A stretch of 64,000 nt of DNA, taken from the NCBI RefSeq assembly GCF_021917145.1, contig NC_061074.1:5155837-5219836 (forward strand), written 5' to 3'. Made by a program: the position numbers and the translations under genes. This document shows positions 20,988-57,133 of the stretch, one piece after another (positions within the stretch are counted from its first letter, which is position 1; each line of letters starts with the position of its first letter). The stretch is from Hypomesus transpacificus. Its lineage: Eukaryota; Chordata; Actinopteri; Osmeriformes; Osmeridae. A model generated the notes under the pieces. That model had not been told where the DNA came from. It ran no database searches and saw only the letters and a program-made list of their open reading frames with translations.

Positions 20988-35107
<14,120 letters not shown>

Positions 35108-36152: not shown

Positions 36153-36505
36153 CCACAGTCTCGGCCCTTCAGGCCTTCATGGTACAACATGACTCGTCAT
36201 CGTGGACCGTCCCTCTTGGTGGTTTGTTTTTCTTTCTTTCTTCTCCTTTTTTTGGTTGCTGATCTGTGGGTCTGTACCCCAAAGGCTGAAATTACTGACT
36301 TACAGAAACATTTACACTGGAATTATTTTTTATTCATTATTGTAATGAGTAAGCCTCTGGTTGTTGTATTGTGATTATTTTTATTACTGTCTGTCAGTAT
36401 GATTTACTGTTATTTACCATTTTTTTTTTATTTTTTATGTTTATCTATGTTTCTCAGTCAGTGGGGAGAACTGTGGGAGTGCTCTTAGCCGCCATCTGAT
36501 TTGGT

Positions 36506-36510
<5 letters not shown>

Positions 36511-36562
<52 letters not shown>
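36511..36562 (+). repeat. (CA)n microsatellite in the git1 3'UTR
   Basis: About 26 uninterrupted CA units. Confidence 0.95.
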
Positions 36563-36564
<2 letters not shown>

Positions 36565-38790
36565 GCACACACATCTGTGAAATGGGTCCTTCTGGAACAC
36601 TCCTATTCCGTCAGTGTCCATTTTGAGTTTTCTTAATTGATTTCAGTGTTTTTCTACTTGTCATGTTGTTAGTGGCCAAGAGGCTGAAGTGCTGCCTAAA
36701 GGAAGAGAGGTAGTGATGGGCCATGTCTGGACCTGGGCTCCAAATACCACTTGCAGATCCAGAGGTGCCCTTGATTTAGCTTACCTCGAGGTCCAGGTGA
36801 AACCAATGGAAGCACGTCTTGGGTGCAAACACACTGCCCGGCTGGTGAGTCGTGGAAGCTAAATCAACTTCACCTCATCTGAAAACAGTTTGCGTGAAGC
36901 CCCAGGTGTGGCTCCGCTGGTTAGTGGTCATTGAAAGGCCAGTCTCTGAGACAAGGCGGTTAGCGGGCTGCTTCAGTCACCAAATACATTTTCATCTCAG
37001 TGGCACCCTGGGGGAGCCCCATACACCTACTCCTGTTTCAAGATCAAGAATGATCGAGCTAGATTTGCCCATTTGAGGCTAAACCAGTTTGGGAACAAAA
37101 TGTTTATGAGACGTTGAACTGCACTTACTGTATGTTTGTTTTGAATGGGATAAGAGGCGGAGGGTGTTTTTTATTTTTTATTGTACTGTGCGAACAGTGC
37201 CAGGTTGTAGCCGTGGGATTTGGACCATAAGACCTCGCAGGATGTGGATGTCGGAGTTCCTGCGATGCTATTTGCTCCTGTTGCCAATCACCTGGTCTAT
37301 TTACAAACCTAGGTCCAAGTCATTCCTCACACTTTCAATTAATGTACTTCAGAGGCAGTCGCTTAAACTACACAGAGTACCAGGTGGGCACATTTTGCGG
37401 CCACTGAGACGACTCCATTGGGCAGGCAAGATCCACCTGTCACATCAAGGAAATATGGGACAATACAATTGACCTCAATTGTATTGTAGGAATTTAGAGA
37501 AACCCAGGCCTGAAACTGATACTTGATCTGCTCCCCTGAGTGTGCCCTCATCTGGACATTCATTCTTCCATTTGTGGTTTTCAGAACACTTCTATCAGAG
37601 TTCCTTTCTTAGTGCTCTCTGTGTATGTTGGCCAACAGTCTTGTGGTTCGTTTGTCTGTCTGACAGGCTGTGTGTACCACAAGGTGCTACAGCAGCTTAG
37701 CTTCCTGTCTCAGATCAGGTCCAAAAAGATTGTCGAAAAATGTACTTTTTAATAATAATCATGATAGCCTTTGCACATCTCATGCCGTTCTGGCTCATTC
37801 TGTTTGGTTCCTCTGGCCTGAACTCCCACACCTACACCCGGCCAGTTTTCTCATTTCAACCCCCTGACCTCCCATCGACACGCCATTATAGTATAGAGCC
37901 ATATATATGAACATATATTTTCATGGTATTTTTTCATTAAGCTATGTTAGAACTGTGTTTGGGAGATATTTATATATTTCTTTGTTTGCCAAGGGGGGGG
38001 CTCTGGGTCCCTGGGGAGGCGTGGGAGTCTGAGGTCTTGTTCCATATCGACACCCTACCCCCAGCTATACGAGGACAGGAACAGTCTGAGGTATGAATTT
38101 GGTATTTTACCGTTTTGCTCTTTCCAAAGACCAAGTGGAATTTCCACCGCTGTACACCTGTCTGACCTTTGCAGATGTGTGGGGGACTAGGGCGTAGGGT
38201 TAGATTTGGGACTGGGCCAAGGGTGTATGTTTGGGACTGGGCCGAAGACATCCCTGGGCCTGGAGCCTTCCAGGGGTTAGCACTAAACTCATCTCAGTCT
38301 GAGGGAAGAGGGCTTACTGCACAAAGCCACGCCCTTCCCCTTCTTAGTAGACACTGTGTAGGGTGCCTCTAGTGTGAATGTTAGATGCTTCAGTCTGTTC
38401 ATGTATTCATGTTGTTCACACACACTCACAAGAACATGCATCCCAAATGCAACGCACAGTGAAACACACTTGGGTGTATACACACACACACACACACACA
38501 CACACAGAACTATAACATCCAGTGACATAAGCCTTCCACTTGTACATGCACAATGAACAACATTCAGTGAAACACTACACACACACTGCACACACACACT
38601 CCTGAAGGTGTTTAGCCAATGGCAGTGCACTGTGGCCGTACTGTTCCTGTTACTGTGTACTTCACAGCTCTACACATGGGAGATTGGTGATGGGAGAATA
38701 CCTTTTGACCGAAGTTAAAACTGTAAAAAGTAGAGGAAAAAATACAACTAAAGGTCAATTGTAATTGAAACTCATAAGCTGTACATTTGT

Positions 38791-38796
38791 AATAAA
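38791..38796 (+). terminator. Candidate git1 polyadenylation signal (AATAAA)
   Basis: AATAAAATAAAAAAAC lies 440 bp before the oppositely oriented tp53i13 signal. This matches a tail-to-tail arrangement. Confidence 0.6.
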
Positions 38797-39236
38797 ATAA
38801 AAAAACAAGTTGATTGTCCTGACTGTACATGGTGTGATTGACAGGATATACTGTCTAAGTACTGGACAGAGGATATTGATGAGCTGTGCAGGCCACATCA
38901 GGTTACATGTGGATACTTAGCCTTGCATGCATACAGCACTCTTCCATGTGTACACAGACACACCAACACATTTGGTTCAACCCTTCCCATCTACCCAGTG
39001 CAACTGGTATTCCAGGTTGGTAGGATTGTTTTGATGTGTAAACACAACCCATAACACAATAATGACTTAAGATGCTGTTAAATAAACAACAGTTCCAAAT
39101 TGTCAGGCATTAAGTGCACAGGAATTATAGTTGTTGCAAGCAAAACCCTTTAAAGACGCACTGTCAAATGAATTGGTTGCTACCCAATATTCGGTAAGAT
39201 TGACTGCAACGGGCAACTTTACACTTCAAGAAAGTG

Positions 39237-39242
39237 TTTATT
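39237..39242 (-). terminator. Candidate tp53i13 polyadenylation signal (AATAAA on minus strand)
   Basis: TTTATT on the plus strand lies 556 bp past the tp53i13 stop. The interval 39243-39797 would be its 3'UTR. Confidence 0.55.
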
Positions 39243-39797
39243 TCATCGTTTAGATTATGATCCCAGAACAAAGTTTCTTTGAAATACCCCACCTATTGTC
39301 AAATATTGTACCTTCCATGGTTGTAGTGCACCTGGCAACATGTTGCTTACAACAGCAACTTTAGCTTCAACTGATCGACATAAGAGACCATATGTACCTC
39401 ATTCAAGTTCATATCAGTCTATGTGGCAGTTTCCGAGTATTGACAGTTAAAGTGTAAAAGATAAACTAGCTGTAAAGAAACAAAGATATTCCGTGGATGA
39501 AAATGTGAAGTGGAACATTTTCAGTAAATTGGTCTGTTCTCTGCTCTCCTATGAGCCACATGACTGTATTAGCCCACCGAGCCAAAGTCTCGTGAACCGT
39601 CTCATGACAATAGAATGTCAGCTTCTGAATCCTACTAGAATCGCCAAGTTTCTTATTTGTGAGTGTGAATGTGTTTTGAAAAACATCCAGGAAGTCCTGG
39701 GAACTGTAGGCGAAGAGGGTGGATGTGTAAAACATCCAAAACTCTAGAGTGAGATCAGACTCCCTCCTCCGCGGCGGGGTCACCCAGGGTTCAGCTT

Positions 39798-42700
39798 CTA
39801 GTGGTCCTCGTCAGTGCTTGAGCTGGGTAGGAGTGAACACTCTTGCCTTCTGCTCAGGGACCACCTCCTCTTCCTCCTCCGGTCTGCCACCCTTAGCCTC
39901 CTGCGGATGATGTCTAAAACACACGCACACAAACAGGAACACAGACACACATTCTTGTAATGCGGGCGACGAATAACAGTGATCCACAGTGTGTGTGTAC
40001 TGACATGTCACCAACCTGCCACATTGTCGTAGTCCTGCTGCGGGTTGTGCCAGTACAGACTGGGCGTGGTTCTCCAGTGGCGATACAGGCGCGTATGTAG
40101 AACCGACAGTGCCAACAGAACCAGGAGGAACCCCAGCGCCGCTGCCGCCCACACCGCCTCGTCTGTTCTGGCCGTGGGCATTCTGTCGTTTGGAATGGCT
40201 CCCTCTGGTGGCACAGTGGTCTTACTGTCTGTCCTCTGGCGAGTCACCCCGCGGGGGGGCCCTTGTCTCGGGTGATGGTGCCCCGTCTTCGCCTTCTTCT
40301 TGTGGGTCTGAGGGGCTGTACTGTGGTCGATGTCATCAGGCTCCACCTCTCTCTCCTGCACCTCCACTCTTCCAGCCGCTGTCTCTCTCAGTGCGCCAGG
40401 GCTTGTGAGGTGAGGTGCAGCCGTGGTGAGCTGCTCCTGGTTTCCTGCTCCTGGGTTCCCGCTCGGGTCAGTTCGGTTGATCCAGCTGCTGGTTGGAAAA
40501 GGGAGGATAGACTTGTTCTCTTTCTCCACCACCTTCTCATCTACCTCCTTCTCCTCCCTGTTATTCTCCTTCTGAACGGCGGCTCTACGCACGCGGGCCC
40601 TCTCTCTCCTTTTAAAGAGCATCTTTCCGACCATCCCTCCATTTCGTCGGAGAGAGAGGCTCTCGAGACAACAGTGTCTCAAAGTTCTACTGGAGCGGCC
40701 GTGGTCTTGGTCATGGTGGAGTACTGCAGGACGGGTCAACAGCAGACTGTACCTCTGACTCATGACCACATCACCAGGGCTGACGCCAGACGCCGTTGCC
40801 TCCAGCCAATCACAGACCTCCAAGCCTGTCACGCTAGAAAGCTCCAGAGTGCGACCCCATGATACTACGGCAAACATCTAGAAAGAGAGAGAGAGAGACA
40901 TAGAGAGAAAGAGAGAGAGAATGAAGACAGGGAGGACATTCCTAAACGTTTAATTAGATGTGTAACATAAGTTGGCCATGGAAATGTTATGATATGGCAT
41001 GAAAAACATGTATCCAAAAGAAAGTTCCTAAAACTCAATGATTATGGCATTACGTGCTTAACAGCACATATTTGTACATATCAGATTTTAACAACAAAGA
41101 AACAGCTTTTAACAAAGTTCTCCTATGTTATGTATCCCAAGCTAATCTTTTATTTATAAACTTACATAAAGACAACTCCTTCTTCTACTAAGAAACACTC
41201 ATGTCCAGTTTCAGCTGGCATTCTCTATTTCAGTTTAGGTGTCAACTGTACTGCCATTGCTGGGTGTCTGATTTCCCAGTAATGCTGTAACTGAACCAAA
41301 CAAGCCATGGTTGAGTACTTCAGAAAGTGTGGCTATACACTCTATTCTTCTTCTATTATCTTACTCCCATTGAGATGCTTATGAAACAGGCTTACATCTG
41401 TAAGTAAGTTCTGACCCAAATAGATGATGGGAAAGGCCCTTTCCTCTAACTGTGTATTGAGAGAGAGCGTGTGAGAGGGTTAGGAAGTGGCAGGTGTTCT
41501 CTCACCCTGTGTGTGCTGAGGTCAGGGTGCGGAGTGATGATGTAGCTGGACAGACAGGAGCGGGCCAGGACAGCAAGGCGGACCCGCTCCTGGACGGGGG
41601 CGCAGGGATGGTACAGCAACACAGTGGCTCCATGCTGGACACACACACAACCGTTTGGAAAGTGCTTCCTTTTCAACGTGAAATGAGTCGGCCCATCGTT
41701 TGGCATACCTGCAGGTTGTTGAGCCACCGCTGAGGAGGACAGTAAAGATACTCCCCACTCTCGCCTCCTACTGGTCTGTGTGCGCCACTACAGGAGAACG
41801 CACCACAACATATTTTGGTTTCGTTCATTTAGCAGACACTTTTGCTTCATATGTCATATCACATAACCAAACCCCCCTCCCCCAAAAGTCTTAACAACTC
41901 CATGGTCAGTTGCGGATGTCAGAGAGGTTAGATCTTTAATCTGTGAACTCGTATTAATGTGGATATAACTTTTTTTAACGTCCATATTTACATCTTTGTT
42001 TTTCCGAGGCAATTCCCCACTTCTAAACTGACTCTTAATTGTTCTAAAACATGCACTTGTTCTATTTCCTATATCTGATGCAGTGTCATTGTTTTTTAAT
42101 CTATTTGAACATAAAGCATGGAAAATTGGGACTTCTTACCTGTTGGGAATGGAGTGATTCAAGGTGATGGGTGTGTCTATACACACCTGCCTAGCAGGCT
42201 GGAGGGTTAGAGAAGAATGCCCGACTTTAGTTAGGGGATGTCATCAGAAATCTGTCACATCCTTTGTGCAAATCCTCAGTGTGTTCAAAGCCCTGAGCTG
42301 AACCTTACATGATCTAGAAGCTTAAACTATCTCCCTGTAACAGCAGTCTGTTTCTGAGTCATGTTTACTTACTTGTGGAGGATACTGGGTATCAATACCA
42401 GAAAGATTCTTCTGCTAACAAAAGAAAGTACATGACATGCTCAGACAGACTTACAGGTTTCAGCAATGCGTGTTTACAAGTATTATGTAGAAACCCTAGA
42501 TACTGTAATCTACTGTGTGACACTGCTTGTAAACAGAGCTGGTCACATACAATTTGATTTGAGTACCGTAGTTTGAAGACATCAGCTACAGTATAGGATT
42601 GGTTCAATAGGATGAAGTACAGTCGTATAGTTACCAGGGTGGACTCTGGCCAGACAGGCCCCGGACAGCTCCACACGGCAGATGGGGGCAAGTCTATCTG

Positions 42701-43190
42701 TAGCAAGAGCTATCACACATGTGACACAAATGCACACACAGACAGGCAGATGTCAAACATTCAATCGTTTAATTCAATCAGTGTCCATTACGCATACCAG
42801 ATGCTAGTAAAGATTATGGAGGATGCATGGGCGTATCTATCTTTTTCCTTTTTTCTTTCAGATTTTAAATATACATTTGTTAATTTATCTTCATAAACCC
42901 CACTAGAGGACACTATTTAAAAGGGTATTTTTTTTAAAAAAAATCTGGGGGAACATGCGCCCAGACCCCCCTAGTTTTGCTGGGTCACAGGAAAAATTAT
43001 AGGTTTTATCTAAGGGCTGAGCCCCCCCCAAAAGTGGAAACCTAGATTCGCCCCTGGGAGGATATATCAACACTACTGCAAAACAAAGGCAACCTACCTT
43101 GCCACTGTCACAGCCTTGCCACACAGCGCCGCCTTCCAGTCCCAAATACAAGAATAGAGCGGACAGAAGAGCCACTACGGGCGGTGACAT
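39798..43190 (-). CDS. tp53i13: Tumor protein p53-inducible protein 13-like, type I membrane protein, complete, 7 coding exons
   Basis: Human TP53I13 is a p53-induced single-pass membrane protein whose mechanism is poorly known. Exons on the minus strand: 43190-43098, 42697-42635, 42198-42140, 41787-41709, 41634-41506, 40877-40016, 39913-39798. Joined phases give 466 aa and a TAG stop (human about 393 as recalled; the extra length is in the linker). Residues 1-22 (MSPPVVALLSALFLYLGLEG) form a signal peptide. The ectodomain has the segments AVWSCPGPVWPES, YLYCPPQRWLNNLQ, TVLLYHPCAPVQER and SSYIITPHPDLS. After a basic, low-complexity linker comes the membrane helix AVWAAAALGFLLVLLALSVL, then a cytoplasmic tail with DYDNVADIIRRRLRVADRRR. 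Family recognition rests on the YHPC/TPHP ectodomain and the YDNVAD-IRRRL tail. Orientation relative to git1 also matches human. Confidence 0.88.
42826..43056. mobile_element. hAT-like MITE in tp53i13 intron 1
   Basis: The 231-bp element starts CATGGGCGTATCTA and ends with the reverse complement of CAGGGGCGAATCTA (12 of 14 matching). It is flanked by ggaggatg (42818-42825) and ggaggata (43057-43064), a 7-of-8 target duplication. The CAGGGG-type ends and 8-bp duplication are typical of hAT elements (established knowledge). It has no coding capacity. Confidence 0.6.
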
Positions 43191-45000
43191 CTTTTCTGAG
43201 AACAGGGTATCACTCAGGCGTTCTCTGCGGGGAGGTATGATTACAGCTCATCTCGTTGGTGACAGGCGAACAACGTGTGGAGCATTTGATAGACTGCGCT
43301 GCCATGTTCAATCTGATTTATAAAGAAAAGCTGTCTCCACTCACGGCGTGCACACATTTTAGGTAAGGATGCCTAAAACATAAAGTAGCGGGTTGTCCAT
43401 GTGTTAACATCTCAGGACTCTCTTGGCTTTCCACAACTTTGCATTGTTCCCCGTAAGTTATCTGTTGATGATCATGTTGCTACTATTTTTTGCGAACTCT
43501 TCACCGTTGTTGTGCAACATGACAATAAGAGCTTCTAAATGTGAGCTACGGAAACTCGCGAGGGGAAAAAGTCTGGGGTAGCTGTTAGCAGTGATCTCAG
43601 TTTTCCACACAGTGACGCCAAAGTATCACAAGGGTTCACACAGGTCCATGGTTCACAGACCGCACAATCCTCCTCTCACAGTGGGTCTTTTCTGCACGCA
43701 TGGACAAGTGGAACTTTTGACAAGGGGAAAATAACGGAAAGATAAGAAAAAACATAACCAGCTACTATAAAATTGAGTTTGAATTTATGAGATAGCCTAT
43801 GTATTTGATTTGACTTGACGACCATGATCGTACCAGATCATATCTATAGATATATATCCTACAGACTGTTGATGAATGTAAAGCCCCAAAACATATCCAC
43901 ACAGAGAAAATATATTTTTTCATAGCAATAGTTGGAGGCCTACAAGTCTGGACACTGGCCTAGAGAGTGGATTGAACTCTGTTCATTTTTGTGTAACTGA
44001 AAACCTTAGCTTGTTACGCCCATGGCCCAATGACAGCAGGCCACCCATAATCATAGCGAAAACACCTTGGTCATAAAGGCTACGTTGGGAGGGGTGCACA
44101 ATTACAATTGTATGACAAGCTAAACGGCAGCAAAAATCTGGTTTGCTTAAACCTGGAACTCGATGGAGTCCTGCCGACCCAGAGGTTTGGTGACTTTAAC
44201 TCATTATCTCTGGGGTGCCCGACTCTAATTTAGTAGGCTATTTAAAGTTAATTGTGTATGTGTTTAGTTCAATGCTATGTTAAGCTGAAAAAAATATCAA
44301 TTTAATTAGGCCCATGTATTTCTTTCTTTGGACAAATGGTGGGTTGTTAAACAAAAGGTGCGCAGACAATCAAATCATCGGCATTTTTGTATTTTCGGTT
44401 GTAAAATGCGGGCATCGTTCTTTTGGTTACAGGGGCGTGGTAGTCTATACAGTTATTGGTCCAATATGGACAGTCGTAGATGTCACTCCTTAGTCAGTAG
44501 TGTTAAGTATTCTCTTTCGAAAGACAGGGTTGAATGGGTTATGTAATTTATAGTTATGTTTAATCCTAAAACCGTGTCTTGTGACATGCACATCCACTCT
44601 TCTTTGGTGTAAATTCAGTTAGGCTATAGGAAACCTAGGAGAATAAACATAGAGCCTAGAGGGATAGGGAACACAGTGCTTTAGATATTACATGCACCAC
44701 ATAGAGCCTAGTAAGTAAGGGTTAATAACATAAAAAATTAAGATTCAATAACACTGTGTCTGACCTTCTGGCCCAGATCATATTGGTTATAAGGTAAACA
44801 ATTACTGAAAGATTTATGGTACAATTGTGATTAGCACATGGCAGCAGTGTGTGATACATTGTGGTTGGCAGGCAGATGGTGAACGTTGTGGTATAGCTGC
44901 ATAATCAAAAGTTGTTTTTCAAACATGTGAACGTCTGTTGTGTGTTACTGCAGTTGTGGAGTATGAATCATGTTGCTATTATGTTTGTGTTTGGATCCAG
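43191..45000. other. Upstream region between tp53i13 and the Lys/Ser-rich gene
   Basis: This holds the tp53i13 promoter and 5'UTR and must hold the start of the plus-strand gene unless its first exon is further away. A short plus-strand ORF at 43304-43362 (starting MFNLIYKEKLSP) ends at a strong donor AG|gtaagg, but its phase (2) does not fit the exon at 45001. A weaker candidate at 44163-44184 (MESCRPR then G, donor gtttgg) has the right phase. Neither is convincing. Confidence 0.4.
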
Positions 45001-48000
45001 GTGGGGATCCTGGAGGTGGTGCAGGGACAGGAGCAGTGGTCCTGAGCCCCCTGGAGAAACCTCAGTCTGAGGGAGACCTTGGGCCTGGAGGTGTGGGAGA
45101 ACAGGGCGGTCTGGGTGAAGGAGGCCCAGCCAAGACTGATTCTAAAACTTGCAAAGGAAGAGATGGAATGGTAAAACGGAGATGAGAGAGTCAGAATACA
45201 ACACGTATGACATTTGCAATACATGTCAAATACAACAACATTTGGTTCACACTTTCAACAACATCTTTCTACCATCAGGACCTGTACTCCTTTGATAGCT
45301 CCAAGTCTTCAGACAGTGAGGATGAGGACCAGGACAAGAAGTCCAAGAAGAAGAAGAAGTTGAAGAAGCGAAAGAAGAAGGTAGCTGAACAAACAAATAA
45401 TTTGATTTCTGAATACGCTTCCCTTTCCCAGTAATATAATGAAACAGACAGGTTCTCTTTTTTGTGTGCATTTCACCTACTAGCACACATAGTATCTAAC
45501 AGGTAAGGGGTGTTCGGCATGGTGGAATGAACTGAACATGAAAGGAGTGAAACATGCTTGGTGTCAAGTTACACATTTCAAGTTTTTCAAGTTATAGTTT
45601 CCATATCTCTATTCCAAAGTAAAGTGTATGGTGGTGCTTTCATAGATGACATCCAATGTACAGGGAGGGCGTGAATGCCAACACACATTCATAGTTCAAC
45701 ACTACAGATAATGTAGGCTGAGTCATGTAGTAATGAATTCCAACGCAGAAAGACAAACAGAGTGAGTACTGTAGCAATGACAGGTTCGGACTTGGGTATA
45801 GCATGAATGTTAAGCAAACTGTCCAGATGTCATGTTGAAGTGAGACAGATTACACAAACTCACCTTGGTTGCAAGTCTCTTCTCTGATACTAGTTATCAA
45901 AAGTATTATGCCATATTTCCAGTACTCTCTTAGGCTCATTCAATGCACATTTACATTTGATCCATTTAGCACTTTAACCGATGCAACATAATGCATGCCT
46001 AAAGTACAGCTGAACATCTAGGATCAGAAGTGTATAGTTCTACCAGTATTTTGGTGGTCATTCAGGGAATGATCCGTAAATACCAAAGCACCATGCAAAC
46101 AAGCTACCAGTCACAGTGCAACACAAATTAAATGTTAACTAGGCAACAACAACATCTCCTCTACAGTATTGCATAGCACAGTGGAGCCAAACAAGTTTGT
46201 CTTAAGTGCAAAATCTACCCATGTTGTCTGACCGTGGTAGAATAGGATCTCAAATACAACCTACAGAGAATAAACAAACTTGCAGGTTTCACAAGAAGTA
46301 ATGTCCTGCAAAGTGGTGCTTTCAGTGCCCTTAGGCCAAGCGGAAAGTAGGCAGTCCTGGACCACTGTAATAAACAGTTTTCTAACTGTCACTCCTGAAA
46401 GCAAAGGTATGAGAAACCAACCTATGCTTTTTGTTTCAGGATTCCAGTTCAACATCATCATCATCATCATCTTCCTCCTCCTCCTCTAGCAGCTCCTCAG
46501 ACAGTGAGGACAGTGAGGTAAGCTTTATGTTGCTGAGAATACTCTCAAAACTGCAGTTCACTTGTTCAAAGACCACGCCAACCACTGCAATGCGTCAGTG
46601 TGGAAACGGTTTGCTGAAGAATGATGAATGAAAGAACGATACATGGTTGTATGATGATGATGGATTGCTGGATGAAGAGTCCACCCAAGGACTCTGGGTG
46701 TGGCGGATCAGACCTTCGCTATCGAAGCTTGATCCGACCCCCCCCGGTGTGCCTGGATGTGGAGACAAAGCTTGGAGGTTAGGGAAGAGTGGGTGAGAAG
46801 CGAGAGCGTGAGAGAGCATGAGAGAGCATGAGTGTACAATAACAGGTAGATCAGGCGTGTGCACGGAAATGTACTGGGAAATGGGAAGGAGTTTCTTGGC
46901 TTTCTCTCACGAACCTCTCTCTTTCTTCTCCTCTTGAACTATTTTGTCCCCCTCCAATTTAAGCGAGAGCTCCAGTCTACTGTACCTCTAAACTGCACAG
47001 ACATTCATTTTTGGTCATTACCTGTATAGGCCCCTTTAAGCACACTGGTGGTTTATCTTCTTTGCTAATTGTTTTTCCCATTGTTTTAACCGGTTTGGCA
47101 CTTCACTTTTCTTTTTTAGACAATAATCAAAGATAGCTACAGAGTAAAATATATAAATATTATTGTTTTATTTATATATTCTTTTTGATTTTCTCTTGTT
47201 CAGTTTAGTTTCATACTGGCAGTCCAACTGCTCTGGTAGTCCAAACACTCTGGTGTTTAACCACTTTACATTTTGACCAACCCTTTGCATACCAAAGGCA
47301 TCAGCGTTCCAAAAGCTTTTTCCTGTTTATTTTTCTTTTCTTTGTTGTTTCTTTTTGTTTTCAGGCAGAAGCCAACCGTGGGAGGTTGGCACACATTGCT
47401 TGGGTTATGCTATTTCTCCAAACAAGGTTAAAGGCAACATTTGTATGAACTATATTACACTACCACTCAATGATGATATCCTTCCAAACCAGTCTCTCCA
47501 CCCATTAAACCAATAGCAGCCTCATCCCTGTGTACTTCCAAGTGTACTGCTGAAGTGCTAAACCAGTTAAAACACGTATTTGAACCTACTTTCTTTATTT
47601 GCTGAGTCACTGCTGGACTAGTAAGACGCTTGTTAATGGACATGAATGATTAGGCTTCGGGACAACATCTGATTTAAGCAAAGTCCTACACAAACTACAA
47701 TCCCCAAATGGACCAATTAAGAAGAAAAAACTAATTAGTTTTTTGCAGCACGTATCTTGGCAACATTGGTGAACCAATATCCACACTGAAGCCAAGCTCA
47801 CCTATTGTTTTAAATCATGCAGGATCTCTTAACCAACTGGATGTATGCTATCGTCCTATCTCACCTGCTTATATTGCCAGTCATGGTGAGAATACACTTC
47901 ATAGAGGTAGTCTGTGACATAGTCAGCGATTATTTATCTCCAACATATTTTTTTGCTTTTTTGCAATCACTCCCATCATCCCAGTTCATTAAAAGAGAAG

Positions 48001-51000
48001 AACAAATGTTTTGGATTAAAGGGTTCTGGAAAGCCTGCTTAGTGTGTGTTCAGTCAGCTTCTTGCTAAATATGTCATAACAACATCAAAGAAGTGTGGTA
48101 TCTAAAATAGATCTTATAACGTGTTGATGGATTAAAAGGTCAATGTTGGCTAACATACACACTCATGGAAAAGCGACGATTTGTTTGCATGAATCTAAAC
48201 TACGTATATAGGGAGTATTCATGACAAAGTCCATAATCAAACAGACTGTTCAGTTTGCACAAGTAGTTGTTATGGATTGTATTGTCAGCCACAGTTCATT
48301 TACTGTCAATTGACAATAAACTGTGACAACCAGCAGATAACTTGGATAAGAGAATCATATACTCTCTCTCTCTCTCTGTCTCTGTCTCTGTCTCTGTCTC
48401 TGTCTCTGTCTGGGTGTGTGTGTGGGTGTGTACACATGAACATGAGGAAGTGATAATACACGCTCACTGACTGGTTTCTCCTGTTTCTGCTGAGGGAACC
48501 TTCATATGCCAGAGGACAATTGTTCATAAAAAATTACTTGAAGTACATGAATAACATGAATTCTACATAAATACATAAATGCACAAAAAGCATGCATTCA
48601 GAAATGTGTGCAGGCACGTACAGCCTGGTTCTGCATGTCCTTCATTGATCAAGGAATCAATAAAAGATGGATCTTGTAACTTACTTCACACTTTAAGTAA
48701 CTCCTACTGTTCACTGCAGGATGACAAGAAAAAGAAGAAAAAGAAGAAGGAGGGTGAAAGGAAAGACTCTGTTTGGGACAACAGTGTCATAATAGATACT
48801 GGTATGTGAAACCCCAAACATCCCCAACCTCACTATCTCATCCCAAAGAATATAAATTAAGTCATGTTTATTATCACATCTAGCAAATTACTTTCTATGC
48901 AGGAGTCGAGGGATGCACAGATTCAACATCAATGCAAGGTCTGAAGGATAAGGTGAGCTTCTGACTTCAGCCTGGTCAAAGTGGTTAGAGTACTCAGTCA
49001 GAGTATCGTAACATGCAACTTGACCGGAACAATCATTCTCTACTCTGTCGTCCACAGGAGTCAGATAGTGAAAAAGACAAGAAGAAGAAGAAGAAGAAAA
49101 AGATGAAGAAGAAGAAAATGAAGAAGAGCAAGGTATGTGTACATTCAGACCTTTCGGAGGTGTCATGCTTTACCTAGAAGATGTCCACTTGGTCTAGTAG
49201 GCCCTCTAGTGGCACTGGAGGGCCACTGGCGTTGAAAAGCTGACTGAAATTATTGATTTGCTTTTTTCTCTGCTTCAGGATTCAAGCTCTTCATCTTTAT
49301 CATCTTCATCATCAGACAGCTCAGATAGTGAAGATAAGAAGAAGAAAAAGAAGAAGAAAAAGAAGAAGAAAAAGAAGACAAAGAGGAAGAGGGTAGGACA
49401 TGGTTAGAGAAATAAGGTTATTATTTTAATGTTGAAATGACAAAGCTGACAGTAACATTGTGTAGTGTGCTGTACAGTAAGTTTTCCAAGTCCAACATAT
49501 ACTAATGAAACTTATTAGTATCTGCATTATTTTTTATAAGCGTATTCATTTTCCCTCAGGATTCCAGCTCCTCATCCTCGTCCTCATCAGACAGTGAAGA
49601 TGAGAAGAAGAAAAAGAAGAAAAAGAAGAAGAAGCAGAAGACTAAGAAGGTACATGACAGCTGTGTGAACCTTGCATGATTGAACTCTTTGCAAATCTCA
49701 TGGTGTGTTTTCCCTTTTTTTCATACAGGATTCTAGTTCCTCCTCTTCCTCTTCCTCCTCCTCCTCTTCTTCCTCTTCCTCTGACAGTGACAAGGAAAAG
49801 AAAAAGGACAAGAAGAAGAAGAAAAAGAAGGAGACAAATGTAAGTTTTCCTTAAATCAAACAAATAAAATAAAACTGATGCACTGTAACAAAAATGATTT
49901 ACCCACCACAATAAAGCAGAGAAAGACATGGTAAAATTAGGACAAACCCCACTTTTTTACTTTTTTATAAATTGTATTAATTATATTCCAGTTATATTCC
50001 AATTATATTCTAATTATATTGAATTCCACTCTGTTGGGGAGCAGGGAGACGATGATGGCGGTGGCGAGTTGGACACCATGAGACAGACAGCAGATGGAGA
50101 GAAAAAGAAGAAGAAAGACAAGAAAAAGGAAAAGGTGGGGCCATTGAACTAATGGAAAGGATAGTTATGTTTTTAACAAGCGCTTGTTGTATGACGGCCT
50201 TGTTTCTAAGAAAACCTCCATTTAAAAAGGACAAAGCACCTTATGTTCTGCTTTTTTCTCAGGCCTCTTCCTCCTTGGGTATCTCTGAGGATGAGGATGC
50301 CAAGGTAAAATGTCACACTTATGGCTTATAGTAACATTTAGATCCACCACTTCAACTCGCAATTGCGTACTTCCTCATTTTAGAAAATAAATATGTTGAT
50401 TTGAGTGAGGACTTTTACCATATTATGATATCCTTTATCCGACAACACATCTCCTAATTTGTAATGCTATATCAGTGCAAAGCCAAAGAGGATGTGTCTG
50501 TTCTCGTGACAACGGCGGAAGGAGCTGAGGTCCACCCTGACGGAATCGATGCCGGACACCTGAGTGATGATGAGGCTGAAGGAGGGAAAGCGAAAGAGAA
50601 GAAAAAGAAGAAGTTAAAGAAGATGAAAAAGAAGAAGGTACAAATGTCCGTTCCTATAGGGTCTCAGACCCTGGTGAGTCAACAATGTGTGTGGGCACTG
50701 AAAGAGGGTTTGATGTTTGCGATCTTCATATTCTGCTGTAGGTTTCTGATGGTGATTCCTCAGACAGTGAGGATGACAAAGAGAAGACAAAGAAGAAGAA
50801 CAAGAACAAGAAGAAGAAGAACAAAAAGGTAGAAGTCGACAAATTTTTTTGCTTTAGGTTATAACATTTCCAAACTGGCGTTAGTTCAATCACTCCTTTG
50901 ATTTATTTTACTCCTAGGATTCCAGTTCCTCCTCATCCTCATCCTCTTCCTCATCATCCTCTTCCTCATCATCCTCTTCTTCTTCTTCTTCCTCTTCATC

Positions 51001-53979
51001 ATCCTCTGACAGTGAGGAGGAAAAAAAGAAGAAGAAAAAGAAGAAGGTTAGAAGGATAGACATTGAGTAACCTGACTGAGGTTTATTTCTTGTCCCTTAA
51101 AAGAGTCACATCAGGTTGTGTAGACGTGATTAATTTAGAACTTTCTGAACCCCCTATAGAAGGTCAGTTCCTCTGATGACAGCTCATCATCCTCATCTTC
51201 CTCCTCCTCTTCTTCAGATAGTGTAGATTACCGGGTAACTATCTTCCATCCGTTACGTTAGGTCACTTCTGAATTTGATTGTTAAATCGTTTTTATTTGT
51301 TATTATTTGTTGAAATAAACTTAGTTTCCTGATAGCAATCATAAATCAAATGCTCACTGTAAATAAAATAAATCTGATATCTGTTACTGTCGCAGGACTG
51401 TAATAAGCACAACCAATCATTGCATTCAGACCGAATATAATGATTGAAAGGCATTGTGACCAAATGCATTGATTGGACAGCCTACTTGCCTTTCTTTCTC
51501 CCGGCAGTAGCCAGGCAACACATTCATGTGTTTTGGGGGAGTGGGAGTGAAGGGAGAGGTTAAGATATTTTGGGTTTGATGCTTTCAAACTCAAGCCAAA
51601 ATGGCTAGTTTCGCAAAACCAACCTGCCTTTAATGTTGATTGACTAGTCAGATTGCTTGTAATTTATCTTTGTGCACCATTTGTGACTTATTATGAGAGG
51701 TCTTCCTCAGACAAAGGACAAGAAAAAAGATAAAAAGAAGAAGAAAAAGGAGGACAAGAAGAAAAAGAAGAAAAAGGAAGACAAGAAGAAGAAAAAGAAG
51801 GATAAGAAAAAGAAAAAGGTAAGGATTGGATGGAGGGGAAAGACAGGGCATGTTAACCTCTGGACTGATTCTCATTCTCGATCAGAAATTTCCAGAAGAA
51901 CATAAAAACTGTAGTTCAGCAACTGCGTATTCAACATGACTTGCTTCTTCTCCTCTCTGTCCCTCAGGATGACTCTTCATCAGACAGTGAGGATGACAAA
52001 AAGAAAAAGAAGAAGAAAAAAAAGATGAAGAAGAAAAAAGTTTGTGACCAAAGCAAATCTTGGCCCTAGGTCTTCCACAAGACATACATAGGTTGTGTCA
52101 TGTTGTTTAGTTTTCACTGTATTTCATCAATGTTTATCTGTCTCAGGATTCAGATGACGATTCAGATTGCGAGAAAGAAAAGAAGAAAAAGAAGATGAAG
52201 AAGAAAAAGGTGTGTGACCAAAGCAAACATGGAACCTAGGTCTCCCATAGGACATACATGGGTTGTGATGTTAAACTAGTTTTGTCTGTGTATGCTCATC
52301 ATCATCATCCAAGTTTGTTTGTCTCAGGATTCAGATGACGATTCAGATAGCGAGAAAGAAAAGAAGAAAAAGAAGAAGAAAAAGATGAAGAAAAAAAAGG
52401 TGGGTCCCATTTGCATTTGTTTGGACACCCAGTGTGATAAATCTCAAATAAAATATTAAGAAACCTCTTGAATGTAGGATTCCAGCTCATCTGACAGTGA
52501 AAAAGACAAGAAGAAGAAGAAGAAGAAGAAGAAGAAAAAGAAGGATAAGATGAAAAAAAAGAAGAGAAGCAAGAAGAAGAAAAAGGTGAGCACCACATAA
52601 GTTTGTTAGGGCTGTTTAATGTTGTCCAGAGTGGTCAAACGTGTACAAAATATTTTGATCAATGACCACCTCTTGAATGTAGGATTCCAGCTCATCTGAC
52701 AGTGAAGATGAGAAGAAGAAGAAGAAGAAGAAAAAGAAGAAGGTATATATTTTTTTCTAGTCGTGTCACATGTGAAACTATTATAATTACCATTGAACTC
52801 GTTTGTACAGTAGGCGTGGCTTAGCTAGTCAAAAAGTAAAACCAATGTTCTCTTGTGCCAAGGCATCATCTGATAGCGAGGAGGACAAGAACAAGAAACA
52901 TAAGAAAAAGAACAAGGATAAAAAGAAGAAGGATAAGAAGAAGAAGAAGGACAAGAAGAAGGAAAAGGTGAGAAGCATCTTAAATGAAGGTTTATTACGA
53001 GCAGCGACTAAGCGTAGAGTAGACTGATGTTTGAACGTGAGGGATGTAGAGTGATGCATGTTCTACCTTGGGTCATCAGGGAGGATGGTAGCGTTAAAGG
53101 TTTCACTCTTTTTTCCATTTAGGATTCCTCATCGTCAAGCAGTGAGGATGATAAGAAAAAGAAAAAGGTGAGTGCAAGAGTGGTACATGCATTAACTTGT
53201 CGCTGTACCCAAGTACATGTAAGGGTATTCGATTCTGAGCATACTCTTTGTTTGCCCTAGGATGACTCCTCCTCAGGAAGTGATGAGGTCAAAAAGAACA
53301 AGAAAGTAAGGCTGGGTGCAAGGTTATGTGAATATACATCAATATTTCTACATGAATTGGTAGACACAAATGACACTGTACAGTCTCATTTGGAGTATAA
53401 TTTGCTCTTTTCAGCATTCTAGTGGCTCAGATGGAGAAACAGAGATGAAGAAGACGAAAAAGGTAGCAAGTGAATATCTGTTGGTAGAGGGAGGGGCAAG
53501 TCTGTTTGACTCTCCTCTGAATGTGTCCTAGGATAGGAGACCAAATATATGACAACCACTTGCGTGGGTCAAAAATCCTCTGTCATATGTACATTTATAT
53601 CTTGAATCAACTTGCCTTGTAGGACTTCCCTGATAAGGATGGAGAGGTGAAGAAAGACTGTGACTTGCCAGGCGGTCCTGTTAGCAGCTATTGTGCGTTT
53701 GGCAAATCCAGTGATCGGCCTGAAGTTACCCCCGTGAAGCCCAAACCCACTCTGGACCCACTGCCGATGCCCAAATCCAACTCCCGTTATGAGTCACTGA
53801 TGAGCTCCTCTTCCTCCCTCAATCCCAAAGACGGCAGCCCCTCCACCAGGCCCCGCAGCCCCATGGAGTCACTAATGGGAAATCCCCCCAGGGTCAGAGG
53901 AGCTGGGGGCGTGGCTGGGAGGAGCACAGTGCTCTCGTCCAGCGACCTGCTCAGGGGCCCTAAGCCCTATCAGCCTTAA
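45001..53979 (+). CDS. Uncharacterised Lys/Ser/Asp-rich protein encoded by a tandem exon array (26 exons seen, 5' exon not found)
   Basis: I do not recognise this gene. Exons: 45001-45170, 45279-45380, 46440-46517, 48720-48801, 48903-48952, 49058-49132, 49279-49392, 49560-49649, 49729-49839, 50045-50134, 50263-50304, 50476-50637, 50742-50828, 50918-51046, 51160-51234, 51711-51818, 51968-52039, 52147-52209, 52328-52399, 52478-52585, 52683-52742, 52863-52967, 53123-53167, 53261-53305, 53415-53462, 53623-53979. Each has an AG acceptor and GT donor, and all join in one frame to TAA, giving 845 residues. Except for one phase-1 pair, all internal borders are phase 0. Most exons read Asp-Ser(n)-Asp-Ser-Glu-Asp then Lys(n), up to 29 Ser (50918) or 14 Lys (49279). 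The last exon differs: Pro/Ser-rich, with SRYESLMSSSSSL. There is no signal peptide or membrane helix. Alternating CK2-type acidic Ser and basic blocks resemble nucleolar Nopp140/NOLC1 in style only; a nuclear or nucleolar role is inference. Confidence 0.8.
46704..46736. other. Imperfect palindrome / hairpin in an intron of the Lys/Ser gene
   Basis: Outer arms CGGATCA and TGATCCG and inner arms CTTCG and CGAAG flank a CTAT loop, with a small asymmetric bulge (GAC against CT). Function unknown. Confidence 0.6.
48365..48412. repeat. CTCTGT microsatellite in the intron before the exon at 48720
   Basis: A CT run changes to (CTCTGT)n. This 2.2-kb intron (46518-48719) otherwise shows nothing recognisable. 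Confidence 0.85.
51960..52327 (+). repeat. Exon-plus-intron tandem duplications within the Lys/Ser gene
   Basis: The exons at 51968, 52147 and 52328 and the introns after the first two are related. Both introns start g-t-k-tgtgaccaaagcaaa, then share cctaggtct-cc-a, gacatacat and ggttgtg. The exons at 52147 and 52328 both begin GATTCAGATGACGATTCAGA. The repeat unit is about 180 bp. Conservation of intron sequence indicates recent whole-unit duplication rather than convergence. Confidence 0.85.
52463..52742 (+). repeat. Second exon-plus-acceptor duplication in the Lys/Ser gene
   Basis: The exons at 52478 and 52683 share their 3' intron ends (cctcttgaatgtag) and exon starts (GATTCCAGCTCATCTGACAG). 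The identity crosses the splice site, again showing duplication of intron and exon together. Confidence 0.85.
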
Positions 53980-54382: not shown

Positions 54383-54396
54383 ATTAAAGAATTAAA
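54383..54396 (+). terminator. Candidate polyadenylation signals (two ATTAAA) of the Lys/Ser gene
   Basis: ATTAAA at 54383-54388 and 54391-54396, about 400 bp after the TAA. This gives a short AT-rich 3'UTR (53980-54410) that ends before the next gene's start at 54769. Confidence 0.5.
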
Positions 54397-54768: not shown

Positions 54769-55665
54769 ATGGATTTTGACCTTGCGTCAGGTACGTTTTC
54801 TTGTCTGTGGACCACGACAAAATGTTTGTGGCTCTTATTGTAGCATTATCAGCTGCAAACTTGAGGCCATGAGGTGTATAGTTTAACAGAATGAGAAGTT
54901 TGGAATACATACATTCTGGTCGAGCTACTTGGTCAACACAAAAGTTTGACCCATGGAGTAATGTTAATTACAACACATCTAGTCAATGTTTAAATGTTAT
55001 TTAAACTTGTAGTTTATTTAACACATTTAAAAATAAATATGTTATGAAACGGTACTGAAAAGCTATTCGTGGATTATTTTCATCAAAGTGGAGAACCTAG
55101 GTAGTAACATCAGTGTCTTCTGTTTTTAGCTGTGGGAAAGGATGAAGTGAAGAAGGAAGACGCCTCTGGCCAGGAGCAGCAGTTCTCCTTTGGCTTTGGG
55201 AAGAAGGACAAAGACAAGAGCAAGGACAAGGTACTGTAGAACTGTGACATGCCTTTTCAGCGTCAATAAAAAACTTGCTCTTGACTGCGTTTTAAATACT
55301 AGAAACTCATAATTCCAGCAGTGGAAAGGTTTTACATGTAGTAGCGGTGATACTTCAAGTTAGGACACTATTCACGCATACAATATTAATAACCATACGC
55401 TACACGCGTAGGCTGCACGTCTTCACTATGTCTGCATCTGTGTTGCATTCAGAGTGACTGCAAAGGCAAGGACAAGGACCACAAGGATAAAGACCACAGC
55501 AAGAAGGACAAGGAGCACAAGGATAAAGACCACAAGAAGGAGCACAAGGATAAAGGCCACAAGAAGGAGCACAAAGACAAGGATCACAAGAAGAAGGACA
55601 AGAAGCACAAACCTGGAGGACACAAGTCAGGCTCAGGCTCCTCTTCTTCTTCTGACAGTGATTAG
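54769..55665 (+). CDS. Small Lys/His/Asp-rich hydrophilic protein, complete, 111 aa, 3 coding exons
   Basis: I do not recognise this gene. Exons 54769-54790, 55130-55230 and 55453-55665 join in frame. The protein starts MDFDLASAVGKDEVKKEDAS, then QFSFGFGKKDKDKSKDK. A repeat region follows of KDKDH, KDKEH, KKEH and KDKGH units (about residues 45-95), and the end is GSGSSSSSDSD. It has no signal peptide or membrane segment and is predicted disordered and strongly basic with about 15 His. The charged K/H/D repeats recall dehydrin-like or metal-binding low-complexity proteins only in composition. The TAG is the last codon of its exon, with a donor (TAG|gtaatt) right after it. A likely non-coding last exon starts near 56466 (tttcag) and reaches AATAAA at 56602-56607. 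The Ser-Asp tail and Lys richness resemble the gene just upstream. Confidence 0.78.
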
Positions 55666-56941: not shown

Positions 56942-57133
56942 GAGGGGTCAGATGGCTGAGCGGTTAGGGAGTCGGACTATTAGAAGGTTGTTGGTTCGAT
57001 TCCCGGCTGTGCAAAATGACGTTGTGTCCTTGGGCAAGGCACTTCACCCTACTTGCCTCAGGGAGAATGTCCCTGTACTTACTGTTAGTCGCTCTGGATA
57101 AGAGCGTCTGCTAAATGACTAAATGTAAATGTA
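56942..57133 (+). mobile_element. tRNA-derived SINE (V-SINE-like) with target duplication
   Basis: The head is tRNA-like, with A box TGGCTGAGCGGTTAGGGAG and B box GGTTCGATTCC. The central conserved block is TGTCCTTGGGCAAGGCACTT, and the tail GCTCTGGATAAGAGCGTCTG plus CTAAATG is widespread in fish genomes. The 9-bp direct repeat ATGTATGCA flanks it exactly (56933-56941 and 57134-57142). Confidence 0.92.

Follow-up and report, generated by a model that had tools for sequence, protein, structure and literature searches.

Charged or repetitive disordered segments assembled from many small symmetric exons are found in the PEVK region of titin, in elastin and in triadin, which differ from the gene described here in composition, compartment and, partly, phase class. 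Acidic-Ser-Lys clusters ("PASK") bind polyphosphate. The central domain of treacle, in the available text of PMC7957619, is encoded by exons 6A-16 and comprises 11 motifs phosphorylated by CK2 and PKC, with linkers of alanine, lysine, proline and glutamate and with NLS regions in the C-terminus. Pyrophosphosites, according to PMC11427299, fall for the most part within acidic stretches rich in serine, with CK2 as their usual priming kinase in vitro; NOLC1 and TCOF1 have the largest numbers of them.

The window, which is the whole stretch of 64,000 nucleotides of Hypomesus transpacificus DNA that was analysed (C15:5155837-5219836 of a genome searched as 437 Mb in 376 contigs), contains a 26-exon gene at 45001-53979 on the + strand, here called the Ser-Lys gene. 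Its features and those of its neighbours are as follows.

Near 12 kb, - strand: ankyrin-repeat gene found with Pfam, presumably ANKRD13-like
20988-35104, + strand: GIT1, placed with the human protein and ending REKKQ; Pfam match of the ArfGap exon 1.2e-12
About 43.2-40.0 kb, - strand: gene which we take to be TP53I13-like, its name and the gene order being those of human
43519-43540, + strand: candidate first coding exon, MTIRASK, with a phase-1 end and donor T/gtgagc
45001-45170, + strand: exon 1, Gly/Glu-rich, entering in phase 1 and leaving in phase 0
45279-45380, + strand: exon 2, the first acidic-Ser/Lys module
46440-46517, + strand: exon 3, acidic-Ser only, 26 aa, net charge -5
48720-48801, + strand: exon 4, a Lys run and then ordinary sequence, ending in phase 1
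48903-48952, + strand: exon 5, entering in phase 1, coupled to exon 4
49058-49132, 49279-49392, 49560-49649, 49729-49839, + strand: exons 6-9, each phase 0-0
50045-50134, 50263-50304, 50476-50637, 50742-50828, + strand: exons 10-13, each phase 0-0
50918-51046, + strand: exon 14, holding a run of 29 Ser
51160-51234, + strand: exon 15
51711-51818, + strand: exon 16, net charge +21
51968-52039, 52147-52209, 52328-52399, + strand: exons 17, 18 and 19, tandem duplicates
52478-52585, 52683-52742, + strand: exons 20 and 21, tandem duplicates with an acceptor region in common
52863-52967, 53123-53167, 53261-53305, 53415-53462, + strand: exons 22-25
53623-53979, + strand: exon 26, the last, 118 aa and stop, Pro/Ser-rich, no known domain
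54383-54396, + strand: two ATTAAA hexamers resembling poly(A) signals, 3' of the stop codon

The 26 exons keep a single frame, as an earlier note on this DNA had read them, giving 845 open codons and a stop. All 25 introns are GT-AG, with a median length of 118 bases. The same note had nearly all exon borders in phase 0, and this agrees with 24 of the 25 introns, the exception being intron 4 (phase 1). Exon length is a multiple of three in 23 of 26 cases, and 17 of exons 1-25 end in AAG. The statement that about half of the exons begin GAT TCC or GAT GAC was too generous: exact GATTCC or GATGAC is found in 9 of 26, rising to 13 of 26 once GATTCN is allowed. Of the 24 internal exons (2-25), the phases of exons and introns would let 22 be skipped singly. 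Exons 4 and 5 can be skipped solely as a pair because of the phase-1 intron between them, so the exons are mostly symmetric, as had been claimed, but the skipping of any exon at will is not possible. The 26-exon reading is sound and, to judge by its anatomy, this looks like a real protein-coding gene.

Use of the acceptor at 45000 has exon 1 enter in phase 1, and a coding exon or start upstream of 45001 would therefore be expected. Of the ATG exons whose phase-1 donor scores above 1, that at 43519-43540 has the highest summed start and donor score in 43200-45000, while across the wider 36200-44990 it is slightly outscored by an ATG exon at 42118. It is tentatively suggested as the first coding exon; it lies about 330 bases from the start codon of the TP53I13-like gene, in divergent orientation. 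An alternative start is the ATG at 44970, which reads straight into exon 1. Around exon 1 the observed/expected CpG ratio is 0.17 (45000-45300) and GC is 0.565 (45000-45199); with low CpG and raised GC, the region looks coding rather than like a CpG-island promoter. Between GIT1 and the TP53I13-like gene, about 37990-38093 (+ strand), is an exon-like stretch with splice-like borders, one frame of which reads SGSLGRRGSLRSCSISTPYPQLYEDRNSLR. It was rejected as a 5' exon since its open frames, by eye, end in phase 0 or 2 and not in phase 1.

Directly 3' of the Ser-Lys gene, at 54769-55665 (+ strand), is a small three-exon gene rich in Lys, Asp and His (MDFDLAS...KDKDHKDKDH...SSSSSDSD). It matches no Pfam family, its end presumably recalls PRR13, and its intron phases (1 and 0, by eye) equal the 5' pattern of the Ser-Lys gene. 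As a tandem duplicate of the Ser-Lys gene it was rejected, with matches of only 13-18 bases (E 0.92). A UnaL2 LINE 3' element is present at 57071-57124 (+ strand; Rfam RF00436, 57 bits against a gathering score of 55), and a frame about 28 kb beyond the window end (L004 8283-8741, - strand) is taken to be BCAS3-like.

When all 25 introns are compared by blastn (E <=0.01), intron 17 matches intron 18 at 81.5% over 65 bases, and introns 19 and 20 share a 15-base identity at their ends; two further matches of 17-18 bases look like chance. Repeats spaced 170-205 bases start-to-start span exons 17-19 and exons 20-21. Differences are found at 4 of 56 sites between exons 17 and 18 (23 gap positions uncounted), 2 of 63 aligned sites between exons 18 and 19 (9 uncounted) and 1 of 60 between exons 20 and 21 (48 uncounted). 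Recent exon duplication has therefore occurred in these two groups. Tandem multiplication had been proposed for the gene as a whole; it holds at the DNA level for exons 17/18/19 and 20/21, while in the other exons only the coding pattern speaks for it, and their descent from a common ancestor by duplication is plausible. As the bounding introns are in phase 0, the number of modules can rise or fall with the frame intact, gain being seen in the two groups. Introns 17 and 18 differ at 14 of 104 aligned sites (17 gap positions uncounted), so that exons 18 and 19 are less diverged than their introns (Fisher P 0.03, for one short pair), which is a modest sign that the gene may be translated.

The product, 845 aa from position 45003, is 31.8% K, 22.5% S, 12.4% D and 6.5% E, with 285 K+R against 160 D+E (net +125). 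Its longest Ser run is 29 residues and its longest Lys run 14, with 21 Lys runs of at least 5. The windowed charge variance is 0.214 against 0.100 +/- 0.008 in 1000 shuffles. This charge blockiness exceeds what composition gives, and the description of the product as a long polyampholyte is thus upheld, with strong charge blocks. A strict module of acidic-Ser head and Lys tail is present in 13 of the 26 exons (2, 6-9, 13, 14, 17-21 and 23). Exons 22, 24 and 25 are near-modules failing the strict head-tail rule, exons 10 and 12 have Lys tails behind ordinary heads, exons 3, 11 and 15 are mainly acidic-Ser, exons 4 and 16 are Lys almost from the first residues, and exons 1, 5 and 26 are ordinary sequence. 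CK2-type [ST]xx[DE] sites number 59, with 212 S/T, where 39.7 +/- 5.0 are expected from 2000 whole-protein shuffles, an excess that is in part a product of the blocks themselves because such shuffling breaks them. The feature of CK2/PP-InsP substrates is present in that CK2-type sites lie in acidic Ser stretches.

The gene anatomy and the block pattern are observed directly; from them we infer expression of the product, its localisation, its modification and a scaffold role. The preferred reading, with a probability of about 0.5, is that this protein-coding gene specifies a disordered block polyampholyte serving as a treacle/Nopp140-like nuclear scaffold. Half of the exons each contribute an acidic serine head and a lysine tail between phase-0 introns. 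CK2 would phosphorylate the DSSS..DSED heads, and the phosphorylated heads would be primed sites that are perhaps pyrophosphorylated by inositol pyrophosphates. The Lys runs would direct the protein to the nucleus or nucleolus and offer a surface binding RNA, rDNA or polyphosphate. Alternating heads and tails would then give a nuclear condensate its charge-patterned scaffold, as in treacle and Nopp140, with the number of modules setting the strength of the scaffold. A nuclear product is the best reading and a nucleolar one is probable.

The likeness to treacle, as far as the available text of PMC7957619 describes it, is in acidic-Ser repeats encoded by a run of exons, matched here by the modules in half of the exons; the Ser-Lys gene differs in having near-pure Lys runs as linkers. 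In exon plan, treacle is a nearer published parallel than NOLC1. The principle of the Ser-Lys gene, repeats in an exon run with acidic-Ser and basic blocks, is already known from treacle. There is no Pfam row for Treacle (PF03546) in the product, and a genome search for Treacle gave 0 matches, its 14 controls being silent as well, so that the empty result carries no weight on whether such a gene is absent.

The main rival to a nucleolar role is one in nuclear speckles, the product being a splicing-associated Ser-Lys protein like SR-25/ARL6IP4, NKAP or PNN, in which polyserine would bring the protein into speckles and JMJD6 would hydroxylate the Lys runs. This is a real but lesser possibility. 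In Pfam the whole product gives a single row, SR-25 (E 8.4e-5), a protein in which a Lys-rich stretch likewise comes after a Ser run. The match sits in low-complexity sequence at 22.7 bits against a cut-off of 40, and by eye the product has no RS-dipeptide array. SR-25 is not known to have a 26-exon array. PMC9934293 links the polyserine proteins SRRM2 and PNN to condensates related to speckles, and PMC9371714 has JMJD6 hydroxylating unstructured Lys-rich stretches, one of them in NKAP. Because other nuclear proteins have similar heads and tails, as the SR-25 row below its cut-off illustrates, nucleolus and speckle cannot be told apart here.

It is improbable that there is no working gene, and that AAG/TCN simple repeats merely lie between chance splice-like sites or a gene is decaying. 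Consistent with this view, simple sequence abounds in the coding parts and some splice sites are unremarkable. By matrix score, 18 of 26 acceptors lie above the 95th percentile of every AG in the window and 8 below, and 18 of 25 donors lie above that of every GT and 7 below, the poorest being the donor of exon 17 (-1.5). Against this, one frame is held open through all 25 GT-AG introns, and the density of GAA-type hexamers, 129 per kb in exons 2-25, drops to 1.7 per kb in introns, which means that the simple repeats end at exon borders. Further evidence against it comes from a deficit of AAA-AAA codon pairs, of which there are 5, where gene-wide shuffling of Lys codons gives 12.6 +/- 3.0 (P 0.005) and shuffling within exons, with the last codon of each exon fixed, gives 11.6 +/- 2.7 (P 0.008). 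Under the latter shuffle, runs of A7 or longer number 4 against 9.0 +/- 2.1 (P 0.012); the longest A run, 8 against 11.7 +/- 2.3 in Lys-codon shuffles, is not significantly short (P 0.07). The deficit is a modest sign of translation, and could come partly from the growth of AAG repeats. Iterated AAA cuts protein output more than AAG in the available text of a 2015 eLife paper (PMC4363877). Polybasic stretches arrest ribosomes and set off quality control, according to the available text of PMC5534433, and the output of the Ser-Lys protein might therefore be low.

The idea of GAA-type enhancers in the Lys blocks compensating for weak splice sites found no support, as GAA-hexamer density simply follows the coding sequence. 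Splice scores of the Ser-Lys gene do not differ significantly from those of GIT1 (18 acceptors, P 0.29; 18 donors, P 0.64), a rough control in which each border is the site with the highest score no more than 15 bases from an approximate tblastn limit, and at least two acceptors (-10.8 and -15.8) look wrong, which would make GIT1 seem too weak. Hexamer count shows no significant correlation with splice score (rho -0.29, P 0.18, n 24).

A membrane scaffold like triadin or junctin, with a charged tail from many short K-rich exons, would account for exons that resemble those of triadin. This is very unlikely, since the Ser-acidic heads are unlike triadin, and no such family is among the Pfam rows for exons 1+2, the last exon or the whole product; a membrane anchor encoded 5' of exon 1 would be compatible with these results. 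The last exon matches 0 Pfam families (E <=1), 0 NCBIfam families and 0 PDB sequences (E <=10), as anticipated from its lack of a recognisable domain, and in viral contigs it gave 16 pattern matches, none confirmed. Its AlphaFold model, from a single-sequence alignment, predicts no confident fold (mean pLDDT 56.3, pTM 0.12, one 6-residue helix). In its own genome it finds itself and one row at E 0.13 (C15:11804368, 33% over 60 aa), which was read as chance; the surrounding 3.2 kb show no acidic-Ser/Lys exon. Exons 1+2 give one chance-level Pfam row, TMEM208 (E 0.88, under its cut-off), and in the genome find themselves and two rows (E 0.53 and 0.54). Exon 1 and the last exon thus have one significant genomic place each. 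The earlier note had named NOLC1 and triadin among the well-known genes that these two exons might match, and neither exon matches such a gene in Pfam or in the genome search. A genome search for further Ser-Lys exons, in which simple-repeat queries were largely skipped, found only the Ser-Lys gene itself (2 matches, 9 candidates scored). A literature search found no paper on the locus, for which an automatic gene name may exist in vertebrate catalogues.

NOLC1/Nopp140 shares with the Ser-Lys product the alternation of acidic-Ser and basic blocks. It differs in its A/K/P linkers, in having by eye no long Lys run and in its SRP40_C end, while the Ser-Lys gene has near-pure Lys tails and an unrelated C-terminal end. 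A single genomic match to SRP40_C, from 3 scored candidates, lies at C11:3327616-3327807 (E 1.5e-18); neither the last exon nor the whole Ser-Lys product gives an SRP40_C row in Pfam. The NOLC1 locus there has, by eye, what we take to be a LisH-like N-terminus; exons 1-26 of the Ser-Lys gene have no Pfam row for LisH, in a search starting at 45001. Of ten Ser-rich frames surveyed in 10 kb of the NOLC1 locus, which are frames and not mapped exons, eight hold one acidic-Ser module each and two hold five or more. One-module exons are thus probably shared in part with NOLC1, and this weakens the claim of a new plan. It is hardly tenable that the Ser-Lys gene is this genome's own NOLC1 or TCOF1 in a diverged form, despite the similar alternation and the one-module stretches, since the C11 locus has the SRP40_C end, the linker modules and the LisH-like start, and the Ser-Lys product has neither an SRP40_C nor a Treacle row. 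The C11 locus (C11:3327301-3337300) also contains long minisatellite-like repeats between Ser-rich frames, and near-identical acidic-Ser modules repeated inside one frame.

A bolder and rather doubtful proposal is that this is an undescribed fish gene and a splice-tunable charge ladder, in which every module exon would add one acidic-Ser/poly-Lys step, and exon duplication and skipping would shift the number of modules inside a species or a cell. The undescribed protein family and the rapid variation by splicing or evolution that the earlier note had suggested would be conjectures, a single copy of the gene being seen here. The product would be an extreme CK2/PP-InsP substrate and a polyphosphate-binding scaffold, with Lys runs that test the limit of translation without quality-control arrest. 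If it is transcribed, the Ser-Lys gene offers a set of naturally occurring, similar exons that each encode one defined charge block, and with these the effect of block number on condensate behaviour and inositol-pyrophosphate modification could be tested. With its many Lys runs and scarce AAA-AAA pairs, it would likewise be a natural test of poly-lysine translation.
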